A DNA stretch of 64,000 nucleotides. It comes from Thermococcus sp. LS1 (GTDB taxonomy: Archaea > Methanobacteriota_B > Thermococci > Thermococcales > Thermococcaceae). A model generated the notes under the pieces. It had not been told where the DNA came from, did no database searches, and was given only the letters and a program-made list of their open reading frames with translations. Location of the stretch: assembly GCF_012027395.1 (NCBI RefSeq), contig NZ_SNUJ01000002.1, forward strand, positions 248,001 through 312,000, written 5' to 3'. How positions within the stretch are numbered: position 1 is the stretch's first letter; every line of letters begins with the position of its first letter. The translations under genes and the position numbers were made by a program. Positions 36,103 through 50,071 of the stretch are shown piece after piece.

Positions 36103-37350
36103 ATGTCTCACAAATCAGCCGAAATGTATGAGCTCAAGAAAAAAGTGGAGGAGCTGAAGAGCTATCGAGGCCGAGCGACCGAGCTTGTAAGCCTCTACAT
36201 CCCAGCGGGCTACGACATAAACAAGGTTATGCAGCAGCTTAGGGAGGAGTATGGAACTGCCCAGAACATCAAGTCAAAGTCCACTCGAAAAAACGTCCTC
36301 GGTGCCCTTGAGAGGGCCATGCAGCACCTCAAGCTTTATCGAAAAACCCCCGAGAATGGTTTGGCCCTCTTCGTTGGAAACGTGAGTGAGCAGGAGGGAG
36401 TGAGCGATATAAAGCTCTGGGCCATAGTTCCGCCGGAACCCCTTAAGGTTCGCCTTTACCGCTGCGACCAGACCTTTGTAACCGAGCCCCTTGAGGAAAT
36501 GCTCCGTGTTAAGGACGCCTACGGTCTAATAACCGTCGAGAAGAACGAAGCCACGATAGGCCTTCTGAGGGGCAAGAGGATTGAGGTCATCGACGAGCTC
36601 ACCTCAAACGTCCCGGGAAAGACGAGGGCAGGTGGTCAGTCGGCGAGGCGTTACGAGAGGATTCGTGAGCAGGAGACTCACGAGTTCATGAAGAGAATCG
36701 CCGAGCACGCCACCAAGGCCTTCCTGCCGCTCCTTGAGAAGGGTGAGCTCAAGGGAATCATCATAGGCGGTCCGGGACCGACTAAGGAGGAGTTCGTCGA
36801 CGGCGACTACCTCCACCATGAGCTCAGAAAGAAGGTAATTGGAGTCGTCGACATCAGCTACCACGGCGAATACGGCCTCAGAGAGCTCGTTGAAAAGGCC
36901 AGCAACATACTCAGCGAGCACGAAGCTGTGAAGGAGAGGAAGCTCATCCAGGACTTCTTCAGGCACCTCGTCAAGGACACTGGGCTGATAACCTACGGCG
37001 AGAGGGAAGTCAGGAAGGCTCTAGAGCTCGGTGCCGTTGACACGCTCCTCATCAGCGAGGGCTACGACAAGGTCAGGGTTAAGGCGAAGTGCAATGCCTG
37101 CGGCTGGGAGGAGCTCAAGACAATGAGCGAGCAGGAGTTCCACGTTTACAAGAAGAAGCTCACCCACTGCCCGAAGTGCGGCAGTCAGAACATAATCTTC
37201 GAGAAGTGGGACGTCGCCGAGGAGCTCATAAAGCTGGCAGAAGAGAGCGGTGCCGAGGTTGAGATAATATCCCTCGACACCGATGAGGGCCAGCAGTTCT
37301 ACAAGGCCTTTGGTGGCCTTGGAGCCTTCCTGAGGTACAAGATTCACTGA
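36103..37350 (+). CDS. prf1: Peptide chain release factor aRF1
   Basis: 415 residues; ATG 36103 (alternative ATG 36097) follows GGAGGGTGATG. It has the stop-codon-reading NIKS motif ([10 protein letters not shown], about residue 60) and the peptidyl-tRNA hydrolysis motif GGQ ([17 protein letters not shown], about 180). The C-terminal minidomain has two CxxC pairs (CNACGWEE and CPKCGSQN) that bind zinc. It terminates translation at all three stop codons. Confidence 0.95.
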
Positions 37351-37351
37351 C

Positions 37352-37741
37352 CTCCTCTTTGCCTTGAGGGGTGGGGATTCCTCTCGGGAGTCATGATCCC
37401 CAACCCTTCAGGGCTTTCATCGGTTTACAGGCTCATCTCCTACTTCCCCGTTACCGGGTTTTCGGTTCAGCCCGAAGGCTCGGTCTAGAGCCCATTACCC
37501 CTTCCCGCCCGAGCGGGTTAGGGTTATCGTCAAGAGACCACTCCAAAGTTTTCAACCATCCAAGAGGGCGGTTTTTGAGGACGCTTTCCAGCGTCAACCC
37601 TCACGAATGCTGGAGGGTATTCTGAAATCCCTCATCTCATCGGGTTTTATGGAGTGGCCTCTTCGAGACCTTGTTACTCTGAAGAGTATTTAAGAGTTTC
37701 GGTTCACCGATTGCTTCTTGGAAGTTTTACTGCACCTCCAC
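37352..37741. mobile_element. Structured noncoding block, probable IS200/IS605-type remnant (TnpB guide-RNA end)
   Basis: This 390-nt block lies between aRF1 and the right chimera and has no open frame. At its left end, CCTTGAGGGGTGGGGAT (37362-37378) pairs with ATCCCCAACCCTTCAGGG (37396-37413) in a long hairpin. More GC-rich hairpins follow (CCCGTTACCGGG; CCCGCCCGAGCGGG; AGCCCGAAGGCT). The layout resembles the right end of archaeal IS605 elements, where the omega RNA is made. A minus-strand TATA-like CTTAAATACTC near 37685-37695 could mark the other end. No TnpB coding sequence is left. The element type is an inference. Confidence 0.45.
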
Positions 37742-39373
37742 TCAAAAAGACAAGGCTTTCGAGTGGTAAAGCACCTCCCGGAGGAGCTTTCTTATTTCTT
37801 CTTTTACATCATCTCCGTCGACGACATACGGGGGTCTAAGAACGGGCTTTATTGAGAAGCCTCTGAGGCCCATGGCAAGCTTTATCGCCGAACCGAAGGA
37901 TGAGGCCAAGTTATAAACCTTCGAGAGCCTTGCAAGCTTTTGGGCATAGATAAACGCGTCCTTAAAGCGCTTCTCCTGGAAGGCTTTATAGAGTGCAAGG
38001 TGAACCTCTGGGGCAAAGTTTGCGCACGCCATTATCCCCCCATCACCGCCAAGGATTAAGGTATTAAGGAAGTGCTGATCGAGGCCTGTGAACACCATGA
38101 AATCCTCCCGCTCACCTTTGACTTCGATGATCACGTCCCTCACGTGGTTCACACTGTCTATCGTCTCCTTGACGCCAGCTATGTTCGAGTACTCAAGGGC
38201 GAGCCGCTTAATAAGCTGAACGCTCAGAGGGTTTGCGCAGCTCGGAATATTGTAGAGGATTATCGGGATATCGGTTCTTTCGGCGACCATTGAGTAGTGC
38301 CTAAAGAGAGCCGTCTCGTTCAGCGGGCAGTAGTAGGGTGGAGCTATCACAACGTAATCGGTGCCAATGTCCTGGGCGTGCTTTGTCAGTTCTATGACTT
38401 CAAATGTGTTTGTGGAAGCCGTTCCCACGAGGTAGAATGCAGCATTGACAAGCTCACGCCCCTTCTCGGCCAGGAACTTTCTCTCCTCAACGCTCAAGCT
38501 CGTGAACTCCAAGAGCAGGAATATCAGATTCTCCCCAAAAGCTATACCGCCTTCTGTGGGTGGGACCAGTTCCGCTGGCACTGGAATGGAAAGTCTAAGT
38601 CCGATTATGCTGACCGGGAGGGCTATCAAAAACCCAGCTACTGGTCCGCTGATACCAAGGTCTATTGCTGCATTCCTTGTGGGCAGTGGTGATTTTACCC
38701 TAATTACTGCCCCAAGCGTCCCCAGCATGCTGGGGAAGGGAATGAAGTAGGGCATTGTAGCTCTAACGCCATGATACGCCGCGGCTATCTTGTGGCCAAG
38801 CTCGTGAGTTCCCAGTATTGCCATGACACTTATCGAGAACGCAATCGCGTTGAGATAAGGGTTTCGTATTCCAGGAAGACCGTAGTAATTAAGGGTATCT
38901 ATGTAGGCCAGCGAGAGGTAGTAACCGGCCAAGAATGTGGTGAAAATCGTCGCGATGAGGAAGATCCACGGCAACCACCTGTTGTCCTCCTTTATTTCCT
39001 GGGCAGGGAAGACAAAGAGCAGCACTTTACCCTCACGCTTCTTGAGAGCAGCCCAATAGCCGAGTTCTTCAAGCTCTCTTAGGAATCTCTCAAAGTTATT
39101 TTCCATTATCCCGTGAACCTCAAAGACAAAGACGTTGCCATCTATCTGCTTTAGCTCAAGATCATAGAACTCCTTCAGCTTTTCTTTGAGGTTCTCCGGG
39201 AGGGAAGGCCTGCTTGGCTGAACCTGCACTGTGGGCTCTTGGGACTCCGTATAGAATCCCACCAGAACCATGTCTCCTCCGCAGCGAGGACAGGCTTTCT
39301 CGAGCAGTGGCTCGGATGAATCAAGAATCTCCCTGTGGCCACAGTTGATGCACTCGTGGATGCCCCTTGGCAT
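37742..39373 (-). pseudogene. Chimera: N-terminus of a site-2 protease joined to the C-terminus of a DapA-family aldolase
   Basis: 543 codons. Residues 1-289 are an S2P (M50) protease: an N-terminal zinc ribbon (CINCGHRE and CPRCGGD), a cytosolic domain, then membrane segments with the metal-binding HELGH (GTHELGHKIAAAYHG, about 195). At residue 289 (Glu, GAG 38509-38507) the frame changes to a DapA-type barrel from its residue 47 (FTSLSVEERKFLAEKG) to the end, with the Schiff-base Lys in AGVKETIDS. The protease lacks its LDGGH helix and the aldolase lacks its first strand. It is the reciprocal product of the chimera at 29550-30071. Confidence 0.9.
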
Positions 39374-40980: not shown

Positions 40981-41085
40981 CCTATCACCTGGGGGAAGTT
41001 AGCGCTTGAAGGTTATAAACTGTTGCGGGGGGATAAGGAGTAAAGTTTATAAACTCTCGACATATGACTAACTAACGGGTCGTGC

Positions 41086-41160
41086 AGCGGGGTGGGGCAG
41101 CTAGGAGTGCCCGCCGGGCTCATAACCCGGAGGTCGGAGGTTCAAATCCTCCCCCCGCTA
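41086..41160 (+). tRNA. Initiator tRNA-Met (CAU)
   Basis: The 75-nt sequence folds as a cloverleaf: acceptor AGCGGGG/CCCCGCT with A1-U72 and A73, anticodon arm CCGGG-CTCATAA-CCCGG, T arm GGAGG-TTCAAAT-CCTCC. The A1-U72 pair and the three G-C pairs at the base of the anticodon stem mark the initiator. There is no intron and CCA is not encoded. The TATA box TTTATAAAC (41046-41054) lies about 32 nt upstream. The last three bases are also the stop codon of the gene on the other strand. Confidence 0.95.
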
Positions 41161-42021
41161 TTTAGCCATATCTGCGCATTGATGTTCTTTTTTGAACATG
41201 CCCAAAAGCTCCAAAGCTTCTTTTAACTTAAGTTGCTTCCTTTGTATTGAAAATCCAACCGCTCTGTAAAAATTAAACACGCTCCTTCTTCGCTGAATCG
41301 TTATTCTGTATAAGTCAGAGTTATACTGATACATTTTACCCCTAATGTTCACTGGAGTGCCTTTCCCACGGTGAAGATAGATCTTCGAATCTATATCCAG
41401 CCTTTTTAGCAACTCCTCACAAAGTGTTAGCACGTCCAAGTCATAGTTCGAAGCCGACACATAGAGCGTTCTTGATTTTCTGTTGAACACTACCGTTCCC
41501 TCGCTGTCAAAGAATCCCCTCAAAAATTCCTTTGGATACGTCCCGGCAGTCTTAGAGAGCCGTTCTTTTGGCCCTTTTAGGAACATGAACAGCTCCTTGT
41601 TGGTAACCTCCACCCACCATCTATCGGCTCTGCCCCGATTGCGCTCAAAGCCCGTTCTTGGATTCGCTCCCATTGCCCTCAAAGCTCTTTCAAAATTCTG
41701 GGCGAAATCTCTGTCCACAACCTTCAGGCGGATTCTGTACTGATAGTTGCCAGTCTCGCTAACGGAGGCATCTCCAAGATAGACCCCAACGATGTAGGCC
41801 AGCTCTGGGGAGGGTTTTAGATTGACGCGCTTGGTTTTGTTAAACGTGTTGTGAGTTCCCTTGCACCACCTAAGAACTGTTGCCTTTGAGACGGAAACGT
41901 TAAATTCCGTCATTATCGTCTCCCTAATCTTGGAGTAGCTCATTCCAGATTCACGCAAATGGAAAACTCTGTTCTGTATTGTTCCTATCTCCCACGGTGT
42001 GAGCTCCTTCAGCTTCCGCAT
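41158..42021 (-). CDS. Free-standing LAGLIDADG homing endonuclease, abutting the tRNA
   Basis: 287 residues from ATG 42021, just downstream of the TATA-like GTTTTAAGC; the longer frame to 42111 starts upstream of the promoter. The N-terminus has an HTH (YSKIRETIMTEFNVSVSKATVLRW, as VSVSKATVLRW, about 30-50). Two LAGLIDADG motifs follow: LAYIVGVYLGDASV (about 78-91) and FLRGFFDSEGTVV (about 170-182), each with the acidic residue kept, so it may be active. The TAG stop (41160-41158) is made of the tRNA 3' end. There is no host intron or intein around it. A fragment of a related gene lies at 42129-42310. Confidence 0.88.
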   Translation of the reverse strand: MRKLKELTPWEIGTIQNRVFHLRESGMSYSKIRETIMTEFNVSVSKATVLRWCKGTHNTFNKTKRVNLKPSPELAYIVGVYLGDASVSETGNYQYRIRLKVVDRDFAQNFERALRAMGANPRTGFERNRGRADRWWVEVTNKELFMFLKGPKERLSKTAGTYPKEFLRGFFDSEGTVVFNRKSRTLYVSASNYDLDVLTLCEELLKRLDIDSKIYLHRGKGTPVNIRGKMYQYNSDLYRITIQRRRSVFNFYRAVGFSIQRKQLKLKEALELLGMFKKEHQCADMAK

Positions 42022-42078
42022 ATAACTACAATTACTCGTTTGCTTAAAACTCTTTTGAATAATAACAATCGCGGGCAG

Positions 42079-42128
42079 ACCTTTTAAACCTCCCCTTAAT
42101 TTCCAACGCAAAGGGGTGGCTGGCGGGA
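42079..42128 (+). promoter_or_regulatory. First copy of the uS15 promoter and leader
   Basis: CCTTTTAAAC (42080-42089) followed after 18 nt by GCAAAGGGGTGGCTGGCGGGA (42108-42128, written here in two overlapping parts: GCAAAGGGGTGGCTGG and GGCTGGCGGGA). The element before uS15 (42915-42964) has the same parts with the same spacing and two base changes in the leader. This copy is followed by an endonuclease fragment and not by a ribosomal protein gene. Confidence 0.7.
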
Positions 42129-42310
42129 AATTGTTCCCGCTTGATAATTTCTATTCTGTACGGGTCGCTGTTGTAGTGGTAGGTTTCGTCACGGATATTT
42201 ACAAGGATTTCTTCCTTAAGTTTTATCTTATTTCCAGCACAATTACTGATAGTTAGAACATGAAGTGTTACATCTCTTTTGAAGTTAGGAACCCAAAAGA
42301 AGGGCTAGTA
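42129..42310 (-). pseudogene. C-terminal fragment of a second LAGLIDADG endonuclease
   Basis: The minus strand reads FFWVPNFKRDVTLHVLTISN, then CAGNKIKLKEEILVNIRDET, then YHYNSDPYRIEIIKREQF, bounded upstream by a TAG near 42311. VNIR-x3-Y-x-YNSD-x-YRI-x-I-x2-R matches VNIRGKMYQYNSDLYRITIQRR in the intact neighbour (14 of 22 residues). The homology stops at the leader copy (42128). No start, HTH or LAGLIDADG motif is left. Confidence 0.7.
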
Positions 42311-42371
42311 CAGATGGAGAAACTTTTATTTACTTTAGGTACCATAATTAAAAATGTACAAGGTGATAAAT

Positions 42372-42908
42372 ATGAAACGAGGAGTTTCTAGTATCGAGTA
42401 TTTGTTCCTTATTGCTGTAGCACTGGTAATAGTACTGTTTGTCATTCACCAGCTGGCAGTGATGACTTCTGATTACACGGCTGTAATGGAAGCTATCTCA
42501 AACGAAATAGCTCAGGAACTGGCAAATCAGTCATGCAACGGGACGTCTGAGGTAGTGATATACTATGTTCACTATGATGCTCAAGGATGGGATCATTCGA
42601 ACCTAAATGACGAGTACGTAGTTATTGCAAACCTTGGATGTTTAGATGAAAACCTAGGTGGATGGAGATTGGTGGATGAAAAAGGACACACGTACATTTT
42701 CCCAAGTGAATTTATTCTGAAAGCTGGAAAAACGGTAACTGTACATACTGGCTCAGGTACAGACACCGACACAGACCTTTACTGGGGCGAAAAGAGTGCT
42801 GTCTGGAACAATGACGGCGACACCGCGTACCTTTACGATGCGAGCGGAAACCTTGTGGACAGTTGCAGCTGGACTGGAAAAGAAGGCGGAGCCGTCAGTT
42901 GTCACTGA
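42372..42908 (+). CDS. Class III signal peptide (pilin-like) protein with a lamin-tail domain
   Basis: 178 residues from ATG 42372 (AAGGTGATAAAT upstream). Residues 1-35 (MKRGVSSIEYLFLIAVALVI) are a type-IV-prepilin-like signal and membrane helix. Residues 70-178 form an Ig-like lamin-tail domain (NDEYVVIANLGC, LGGWRLVDEKGHTYIFPSEF, LKAGKTVTVHTGSG, GDTAYLYDASGNLV). Four Cys could form two disulfides outside the cell. Lamin-tail domains in archaea are found on secreted nucleases and surface proteins. It may display a binding domain on a pilus or the membrane. The TATA-like CTTTTATTTAC lies at 42325-42335. Confidence 0.85.
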   Translation: MKRGVSSIEYLFLIAVALVIVLFVIHQLAVMTSDYTAVMEAISNEIAQELANQSCNGTSEVVIYYVHYDAQGWDHSNLNDEYVVIANLGCLDENLGGWRLVDEKGHTYIFPSEFILKAGKTVTVHTGSGTDTDTDLYWGEKSAVWNNDGDTAYLYDASGNLVDSCSWTGKEGGAVSCH

Positions 42909-42914
42909 TGGCAA

Positions 42915-42964
42915 ACTTTTTAAACTCCTTCTTTTAGGCTGATGCGAAGGGGCGGCTGGCGGGA
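42915..42964 (+). promoter_or_regulatory. uS15 promoter and leader (second copy)
   Basis: ACTTTTTAAAC (42915-42925) is the TATA box. The leader GCGAAGGGGCGGCTGGCGG begins at 42944 and is a GC-rich element 28 nt before the start of uS15. It is repeated with conserved spacing at 42079-42128. Confidence 0.65.
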
Positions 42965-42991
42965 GCTGGCCGTCACCGGGAGGTGTATGAT

Positions 42992-43447
42992 ATGGCAAGG
43001 ATACACGCGAGAAAGAGGGGTAAGTCTGGTTCTAAGAGGCCACCGAGGACCGCTCCGCCGACCTGGGTCGAGTACACGGCGGAGGAGGTCGAGGGGCTCG
43101 TTATTAAGCTCAGGAAGGAAGGCTACAGCGCGGCCATGATAGGAACCATCCTCAGGGACCAGTACGGCATTCCGAGCGTCAAGCTCATCACCGGCAAGAA
43201 GATAACCAAGATACTCGAGGAGAACGGCCTCGCTCCTGAGATTCCGGAGGACCTCATGGCCCTTATCAGGAAGGCCGTCAAGCTCAGGAAGCACCTCGAG
43301 ATGCACCCGAAGGACAAGCACTCAAGGCGCGGTCTCCAGCTCACCGAGAGCAAAATCAGGAGGCTCGTCAAGTACTACAGGAGAACCGGCAAGCTGCCAG
43401 CGAAGTGGCGCTACGACCCAGAGCAGGCCAAGCTCCTGGTTCGCTGA
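42992..43447 (+). CDS. rps15: 30S ribosomal protein uS15
   Basis: 151 residues from ATG 42992 (GGGAGGTG upstream). The protein begins [19 protein letters not shown] and has the archaeal/eukaryotic N-terminal extension; the S15 core is [20 protein letters not shown]. It starts the uS15-GAN-Pcc1-eS1 group, a layout typical of Thermococcales. Confidence 0.97.
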
Positions 43448-50008: not shown

Positions 50009-50071
50009 GAAATCAGCGAAGCGAAGATTCCTCATCGCCTCCGCTCGGGTGTCCTCGGCCTCATCATTTCT
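50009..50071 (-). ncRNA. C/D box sRNA overlapping a stop codon
   Basis: On the minus strand: GAAATGATGA with box C ATGATGA (50067-50061), 12-nt guide GGCCGAGGACAC, D'-like CCGA, a spacer of about 10 nt, C'-like TGAGGA, 12-nt guide ATCTTCGCTTCG, box D CTGA (50016-50013), TTTC. GAAA/TTTC can form the end stem. Box C includes the stop codon of the DUF2666 gene, so the sRNA could be cut from its mRNA. The variant D' and the long inner spacer lower the confidence. Confidence 0.6.

Follow-up and report, generated by a model that had tools for sequence, protein, structure and literature searches.

A doubled uS15 promoter in Thermococcus sp. LS1 as the probable trace of allele exchange between the initiator tRNA-Met and uS15 genes

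Members of the Thermococcales harbor integrated elements that target tRNA genes. One study (PMC7247131) describes archaeal S15 leaders, all of them from Halobacteria and Methanomicrobia, and names a G.U/G-C pair as a known mark of S15 binding. In the T-even phages, intronless homing involves endonucleases encoded outside introns and inteins, between conserved genes (PMC2988022). Here we analyzed a 64,000-nucleotide stretch of the Thermococcus sp. LS1 genome (contig NZ_SNUJ01000002.1, positions 248,001 to 312,000; referred to as the window), in which the promoter and leader of the gene for ribosomal protein uS15 occur twice. Taken as a whole, the explanation in which we place good confidence is that tRNA-Met and uS15 enclose a recombination slot, that the window contains two of its alleles joined non-homologously, and that a LAGLIDADG endonuclease is the likely engine of the exchange.

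A prior sequence-only reading of this DNA had noticed a TATA box and GC-rich leader present twice, and this was confirmed. Copy 1 (42079-42128; accttttaaac...CAAAGGGGTGGCTGGCGGGA) and copy 2 (42915-42964; actttttaaac...CGAAGGGGCGGCTGGCGGGA) have equal spacing at an offset of 836, and 42109-42128 differs from 42945-42964 by two changes in 20 bases. Copy 1 is truncated; copy 2 is complete (42915-42985), and its leader, followed by the Shine-Dalgarno sequence, directly precedes the uS15 ATG at 42992. When up to three mismatches were allowed, the 20-base leader sequence occurred at exactly two sites in the 2.0-Mb genome, copy 1 and copy 2, and the reversed control pattern had no match anywhere in the genome. 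Copy 1 ends at the equivalent of uS15 position -28, which falls in the hairpin loop of the leader; it has neither the 3' half of that hairpin nor a Shine-Dalgarno sequence. With half of the hairpin gone, it cannot act as a uS15 autoregulatory leader, and we infer that copy 2 is the promoter in use and drives uS15. In local alignment with the upstream DNA, copy 2 reached a z value of about 5.9 over dinucleotide shuffles. Since the tRNA promoters of relatives score similarly, the homology of the two copies rests on the continuous alignment of 41042-42128 with the tRNA, HEN, and uS15 leader of other species that is described below. Three further candidates from the duplication scan (L026, L029, and L114) were rejected as leader copies, their matches being tRNA promoters.

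The features of the locus are collected in Table 1. The tRNA-Met gene carries initiator marks that can be read from its sequence (A1:U72 and GGG/CCC in the anticodon stem). It is identical to the gene of relatives, with homology stopping at its 3' end, and no second copy is present within the 64-kb window. In what follows, HEN(-) denotes a LAGLIDADG gene that faces the tRNA, HEN(+) a related gene that faces uS15, and LTD the gene with a pilin-like N-terminus and a lamin tail domain. The final three bases of tRNA-Met (41158-41160) double as the HEN stop codon, and an encoded CCA is mostly absent from HEN(-) alleles. The broken end of a second LAGLIDADG gene had been said to abut copy 1. It does: the minus strand at about 42130-42217 corresponds to the C-terminal part of HEN relatives, with E values down to 6e-7.

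Table 1. Positions of the parts of the tRNA-Met to uS15 interval, in window coordinates
Feature	Position	Strand	Basis or remark
Initiator tRNA-Met (CAT)	41086..41160	+	ARAGORN; CCA not encoded; left edge of the proposed exchange slot
HEN(-), intact free-standing LAGLIDADG endonuclease gene	41158..42021	-	PF14528, E=2e-18
Copy 1: uS15 promoter and 5' half of HEN(-)-allele leader	42079..42128	+	TATA 42082-42088; cut at -28
Junction of HEN(-)-type and LTD-type alleles	42128..42129	.	Shared with G037; G066 probably has a decayed version
Second LAGLIDADG gene remnant, C-terminal part, internal deletion	42130..42217	-	tblastn with HEN relatives
TATA-like sequence, probably the LTD gene's own promoter	42320..42339	+	Sequence; conserved in L012 and L023
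LTD gene: pilin-like N-terminus and lamin tail domain	42372..42908	+	PF00932, E=3e-28
Copy 2: uS15 promoter with LTD-linked 'B' spacer (..GGCTGATGCGAA)	42910..42948	+	
uS15 leader hairpin, 12 bp, invariant G.U/G-C motif	42949..42977	+	Candidate autoregulatory leader
uS15 Shine-Dalgarno	42979..42985	+	Sequence
Ribosomal protein uS15	42992..43447	+	PF08069, PF00312; right border of the proposed exchange slot

The comparison covered 94 Thermococcaceae genomes, in 91 of which uS15 was found and in 90 of which the region upstream of it was read. The sequence-only reading had allowed that the leader might be a motif common to many ribosomal genes; instead, it is unique to uS15 across the Thermococcaceae genomes. 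The hairpin is present in all 91 uS15-containing genomes, always at uS15, and a general ribosomal promoter motif is ruled out, since 90 of the 91 genomes with a match have a single complete one; the exception is G053, which has two, one on each of two allelic contigs. Among 32 distinct cores, 99.7% of the cells of the 12-bp stem are paired, the loop varies freely, and a GGC/GCU element (G.U, G-C, C-G) is invariant. The same element is also found, by reading the sequences, in helix h22 of the 16S rRNA of this genome. Covariation is weak: the alignment contains little variation, with only one pair changed on both sides, a level that shuffles reach in 94 of 500 cases. A search of Rfam gave no match to an S15 leader family up to E=10, and no similar hairpin was evident by eye upstream of uS15 in 40 loci from other archaea. 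Judged by its sequence, the Thermococcaceae hairpin is a candidate uS15 autoregulatory leader that is not in Rfam.

Within the stretch read, tRNA-Met lies upstream of uS15 in 44 of the 90 genomes, and the interval between them is occupied by HEN(-), HEN(+), the LTD gene, nothing, or a stack. Relatives with a single leader and tRNA-Met close to uS15, which had been proposed as a check, do exist (L140 and L152). The occupants are scattered almost randomly on a tree of uS15 and RecJ, with 13 changes for HEN(-), 11 for HEN(+), and 12 for LTD, compared with shuffled means of 14.2, 13.3, and 13.3, respectively. Turnover can be seen directly in the metagenome-assembled genome G053, in which one contig has HEN(-) and the other HEN(+) between flanks that are 99.6% (231 nt) and 100% (124 nt) identical; the contigs diverge at tRNA base A73 and match again from the BRE, where the uS15 promoter starts. 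In most pairs of sister genomes, the left border of homology is the tRNA 3' end (75 to 79 nt in most pairs). On the right, homology mostly picks up again either in the promoter (about -84 to -103) or where the leader hairpin has its foot (-48); pairs of the latter kind differ in the promoter too. These exact borders are based on a handful of close pairs. Different promoters occur in sister genomes whose uS15 regions are closely similar, L004 and L005 being an example.

The cassettes also tend to travel with their flanks. In the genus of the window, the 'B' promoter spacer (..GATGCG) is found in 11 of 16 LTD alleles vs 3 of 28 with other occupants (Fisher p=1.3e-4; independent pairs 6.0 vs 0.3, median p 0.03), the exceptions being five LTD rows with an A spacer and three non-LTD rows with a B spacer. 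The tRNA CCA is missing from 14 of 19 HEN(-) or stacked alleles vs 1 of 25 others (p=1.3e-6; independent pairs 8.3 vs 0, median p 0.008). Cassettes are thus usually inherited jointly with their flanks, LTD with its own promoter spacer and HEN(-) or stacked alleles with CCA loss. These patterns indicate that the tRNA-Met to uS15 interval is a slot of recurrent exchange, as opposed to the site of one insertion.

The window itself can be resolved into two such alleles. Positions 41042-42128 align unbroken to L008, L027, and L028 through the tRNA, HEN, and leader, and 41069-42128 aligns continuously to L024, each alignment ending at -28. From 42129 to 43447, the window aligns to L023 through the HEN remnant, which L023 also contains, the LTD gene, the B promoter, and uS15; LTD-type relatives have the LTD gene in the same position, and LTD represents the slot's alternative allele type. 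These alignments indicate that copy 1 is the stranded leader of a HEN(-) allele and that the window contains two alleles in a row. A chimera of two strains, created by assembly or binning, would be scarcely credible as the origin of the junction. In the metagenome-assembled G053, both alleles can share one population, as a chimera would require; however, the independent genome G037 has the same 42128/42129 junction in flanking DNA of about 79% nucleotide identity, and the junction is therefore neither recent nor an assembly error. G066 (the genome of L023) seems to hold a decayed version of the stack: it has no CCA and retains traces of the start region of HEN, whose alignment is above shuffles, partly from the shared HEN remnant.

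Stacks have arisen elsewhere as well. G052 has a separate one, with a promoter remnant (-80 to -42) before the LTD gene, and in G008, which belongs to a different genus, 86 nt of leader are duplicated on either side of two open reading frames. In the latter (L168), the full promoter and leader are duplicated, between -1283 and -350 of uS15, before a short frame and the two open reading frames, which look like a candidate pair of antitoxin and PIN-type toxin. The sequence-only reading had envisaged relatives with two copies and no insertion; none were found, and G037, G052, and G008 all carry inserts. The junctions of these stacks differ, lying at -28, at -42, and just after the ATG. Because of this, they mark no single cut site, and a cut site at the leader loop (-28) was dropped.

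Copy 1 might instead have been retained for a function, either as a second promoter feeding LTD or as a remodelled RNA hairpin. The junction at 42121-42142 forms a hairpin, GCGGGAA-ATTG-TTCCCGC, and the homologous junction of G037 forms GCAGGAA-ATTG-TTTCTGC, with one compensated pair in this comparison of only two sequences. The kept pairing and a TATA box that is intact in both the window and G037 would fit retention, but two sequences are few, the version in G066 has decayed, and the LTD gene has a TATA-like box of its own; we consider retention unlikely, and read copy 1 as stranded.

Comparison with the closest genomes suggests an order of events. G026, the closest, has flanks that are about 95% identical, and G029 and G040 follow. 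All three have LTD, a copy-2-type B promoter, and a tRNA whose CCA is encoded; HEN and copy 1 are absent from them. Outside the interval, the window and G026 are 86 to 100% identical; there is no match from 41161 to 42318, identity is 76 to 94% in LTD, and it is 97 to 100% from 42901 on. Since the match is missing from 41161 to 42318 and high outside, the interval has been exchanged in this lineage. On these sequences, the late arrival is probably the part with HEN and copy 1, which may have come in as a ready-made stack, and LTD would have stood in front of uS15 earlier; the alternative order, with the replacement in G026 instead, is less likely.

This order bears on the origin that the sequence-only reading had proposed, an insertion before uS15 that carried or copied its control region. 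The first half of that proposal has merit, in that the DNA of the interval is foreign and mobile and can bring a uS15 promoter with it, as seen in the LTD-linked spacer and in L004/L005. The other half was not borne out: copy 1 is not a copied control region of the genome's own but the leader of a different allele, HEN(-); the pilin-like gene is probably not the newcomer, LTD and copy 2 being present already in G026, G029, and G040, so that the order is probably reversed; and a single insertion gives way to a slot that has been exchanged repeatedly. A single-insertion account would have LTD and a copied control region entering before uS15, with copy 1 as the original leader of the lineage. Copy 1 does have the common A-type spacer and the position of the single leaders in HEN(-) genomes, and we nevertheless judge this account quite improbable, as LTD and the copy-2-type promoter, but neither HEN nor copy 1, are found in the three closest genomes. 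A target-site duplication left by a transposon was ruled out (the slot contains no transposase, and the two copies match different alleles), as was an integrase element targeting the tRNA (the open reading frames of the slot are HEN and LTD only, with no integrase).

In our analysis, the likeliest driver of exchange in the slot is intronless homing by HEN. The gene nearly always occurs once per genome and lies outside any intron or intein at one cognate locus, directly 3' of tRNA-Met; this position was found in 30 of the 30 best loci, including those of genera in which uS15 is elsewhere. The two acidic motifs (G.Y.GD and FL.GFFDSEG) are conserved across 42 distinct copies at a level of at least 90%. 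Several genomes have broken or partial copies, and broken copies coexist with intact ones. HEN is gained and lost off the genome tree, with its flanks co-inherited. A search of the PDB gave no relatives of HEN at E 0.01. The single locus, the kept catalytic motifs, and the broken copies fit a homing cycle of gain, decay, and loss.

The main rival is passive recombination between conserved flanks, which would yield much of the same pattern. The slot would then be merely permissive, tRNA-Met and uS15 acting as homology arms for transformation-type recombination and the LAGLIDADG and LTD genes as passengers. Such a slot would accommodate borders that are the most conserved sequence, stack junctions at different sites, and the movement of empty alleles and of LTD cassettes, which have no intact endonuclease, yet are mobile too. 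A passenger, however, would lose the catalytic residues kept in the 42 copies, and neither the nearly constant single copy beside tRNA-Met, even where uS15 is elsewhere, nor the coexistence of broken and intact copies speaks for mere permissiveness. We therefore regard this rival as doubtful and favor homing. In another genus (L218 and L219, from G075 and G079), LTD and HEN occur together beside tRNA-Met, at a place other than uS15.

Under the homing explanation, the putative endonuclease would cut HEN-less alleles close to the 3' end of the tRNA gene, and the donor would serve as repair template, so that the cassette is copied together with its flanks. In this way, strains and species would exchange HEN(-), HEN(+), LTD, and empty cassettes through homologous recombination. 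Its conserved edges would be the tRNA gene to the left of the slot and, to the right, uS15 with its promoter, leader, or the gene itself. In the window, a left allele consisting of the tRNA without CCA, HEN(-), and the uS15 leader up to -28 would have been joined once, at the non-homologous junction 42128/42129, to a right allele consisting of the HEN remnant, LTD, the complete promoter and leader, and uS15. Probably, one end of the incoming DNA recombined homologously and the other was joined illegitimately. This raises the possibility, which we advance tentatively, that LAGLIDADG genes target the 3' end of initiator tRNA-Met in archaeal chromosomal homing, the neighboring uS15 promoter being replaced repeatedly. 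With a similar degree of caution, the stranded promoter copies may be read jointly with this as scars, and the swapped unit as one bounded by a new uS15 regulatory leader of the Thermococcaceae.

Other irregularities were noted in the window. At 37742-39373 on the minus strand, a single frame begins as an M50 membrane protease, of which it has the N-terminal part, and continues as a dihydrodipicolinate-synthase-like protein, of which it has the greater part. In relatives, the sequences to either side of about 38507 map to different places or strands, so that a rearrangement breakpoint has fused two genes, and a separate second copy was not found in the genome. About 420 bp at 37348-37766 are missing from G026, where the two sides are joined directly. 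The minus strand at 50011-50071 encodes C/D box RNA sR45 (Rfam RF01274), which is ordinary.

The slot offers a natural example of selfish or accessory DNA whose exchange rewrites, time after time, the promoter of an essential ribosomal protein; the coding gene and the candidate regulatory hairpin stay intact. As in the tRNA-targeting elements of the Thermococcales, foreign DNA adjoins the 3' end of a tRNA gene; unlike in those elements, the slot contains no integrase, and what is repeated at its other side is the uS15 leader instead of the tRNA. With the intronless homing of T-even phages (PMC2988022), the slot shares an endonuclease gene outside introns and inteins and between conserved genes, presence/absence polymorphism, and the co-inheritance of flanks, and SegB of those phages (a reference title in PMC2988022) likewise comes from a tRNA gene region. 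The differences are that the enzyme here is of the LAGLIDADG family and on an archaeal chromosome, that cleavage is putative, and that HEN alleles of opposite orientation and an LTD gene share the slot. Cutting by the endonuclease at initiator tRNA-Met, if it occurs, would extend intronless homing from phages to archaeal chromosomes. The leader resembles those of Halobacteria and Methanomicrobia in that a structured leader, with proposed 16S mimicry, precedes rpsO, with recJ downstream; those leaders resemble an rRNA multistem junction (PMC7247131), whereas the Thermococcaceae hairpin has the G.U/G-C motif. The uS15 leader would thus add a further archaeal lineage to S15 autoregulation, through mimicry of a different part of the rRNA.
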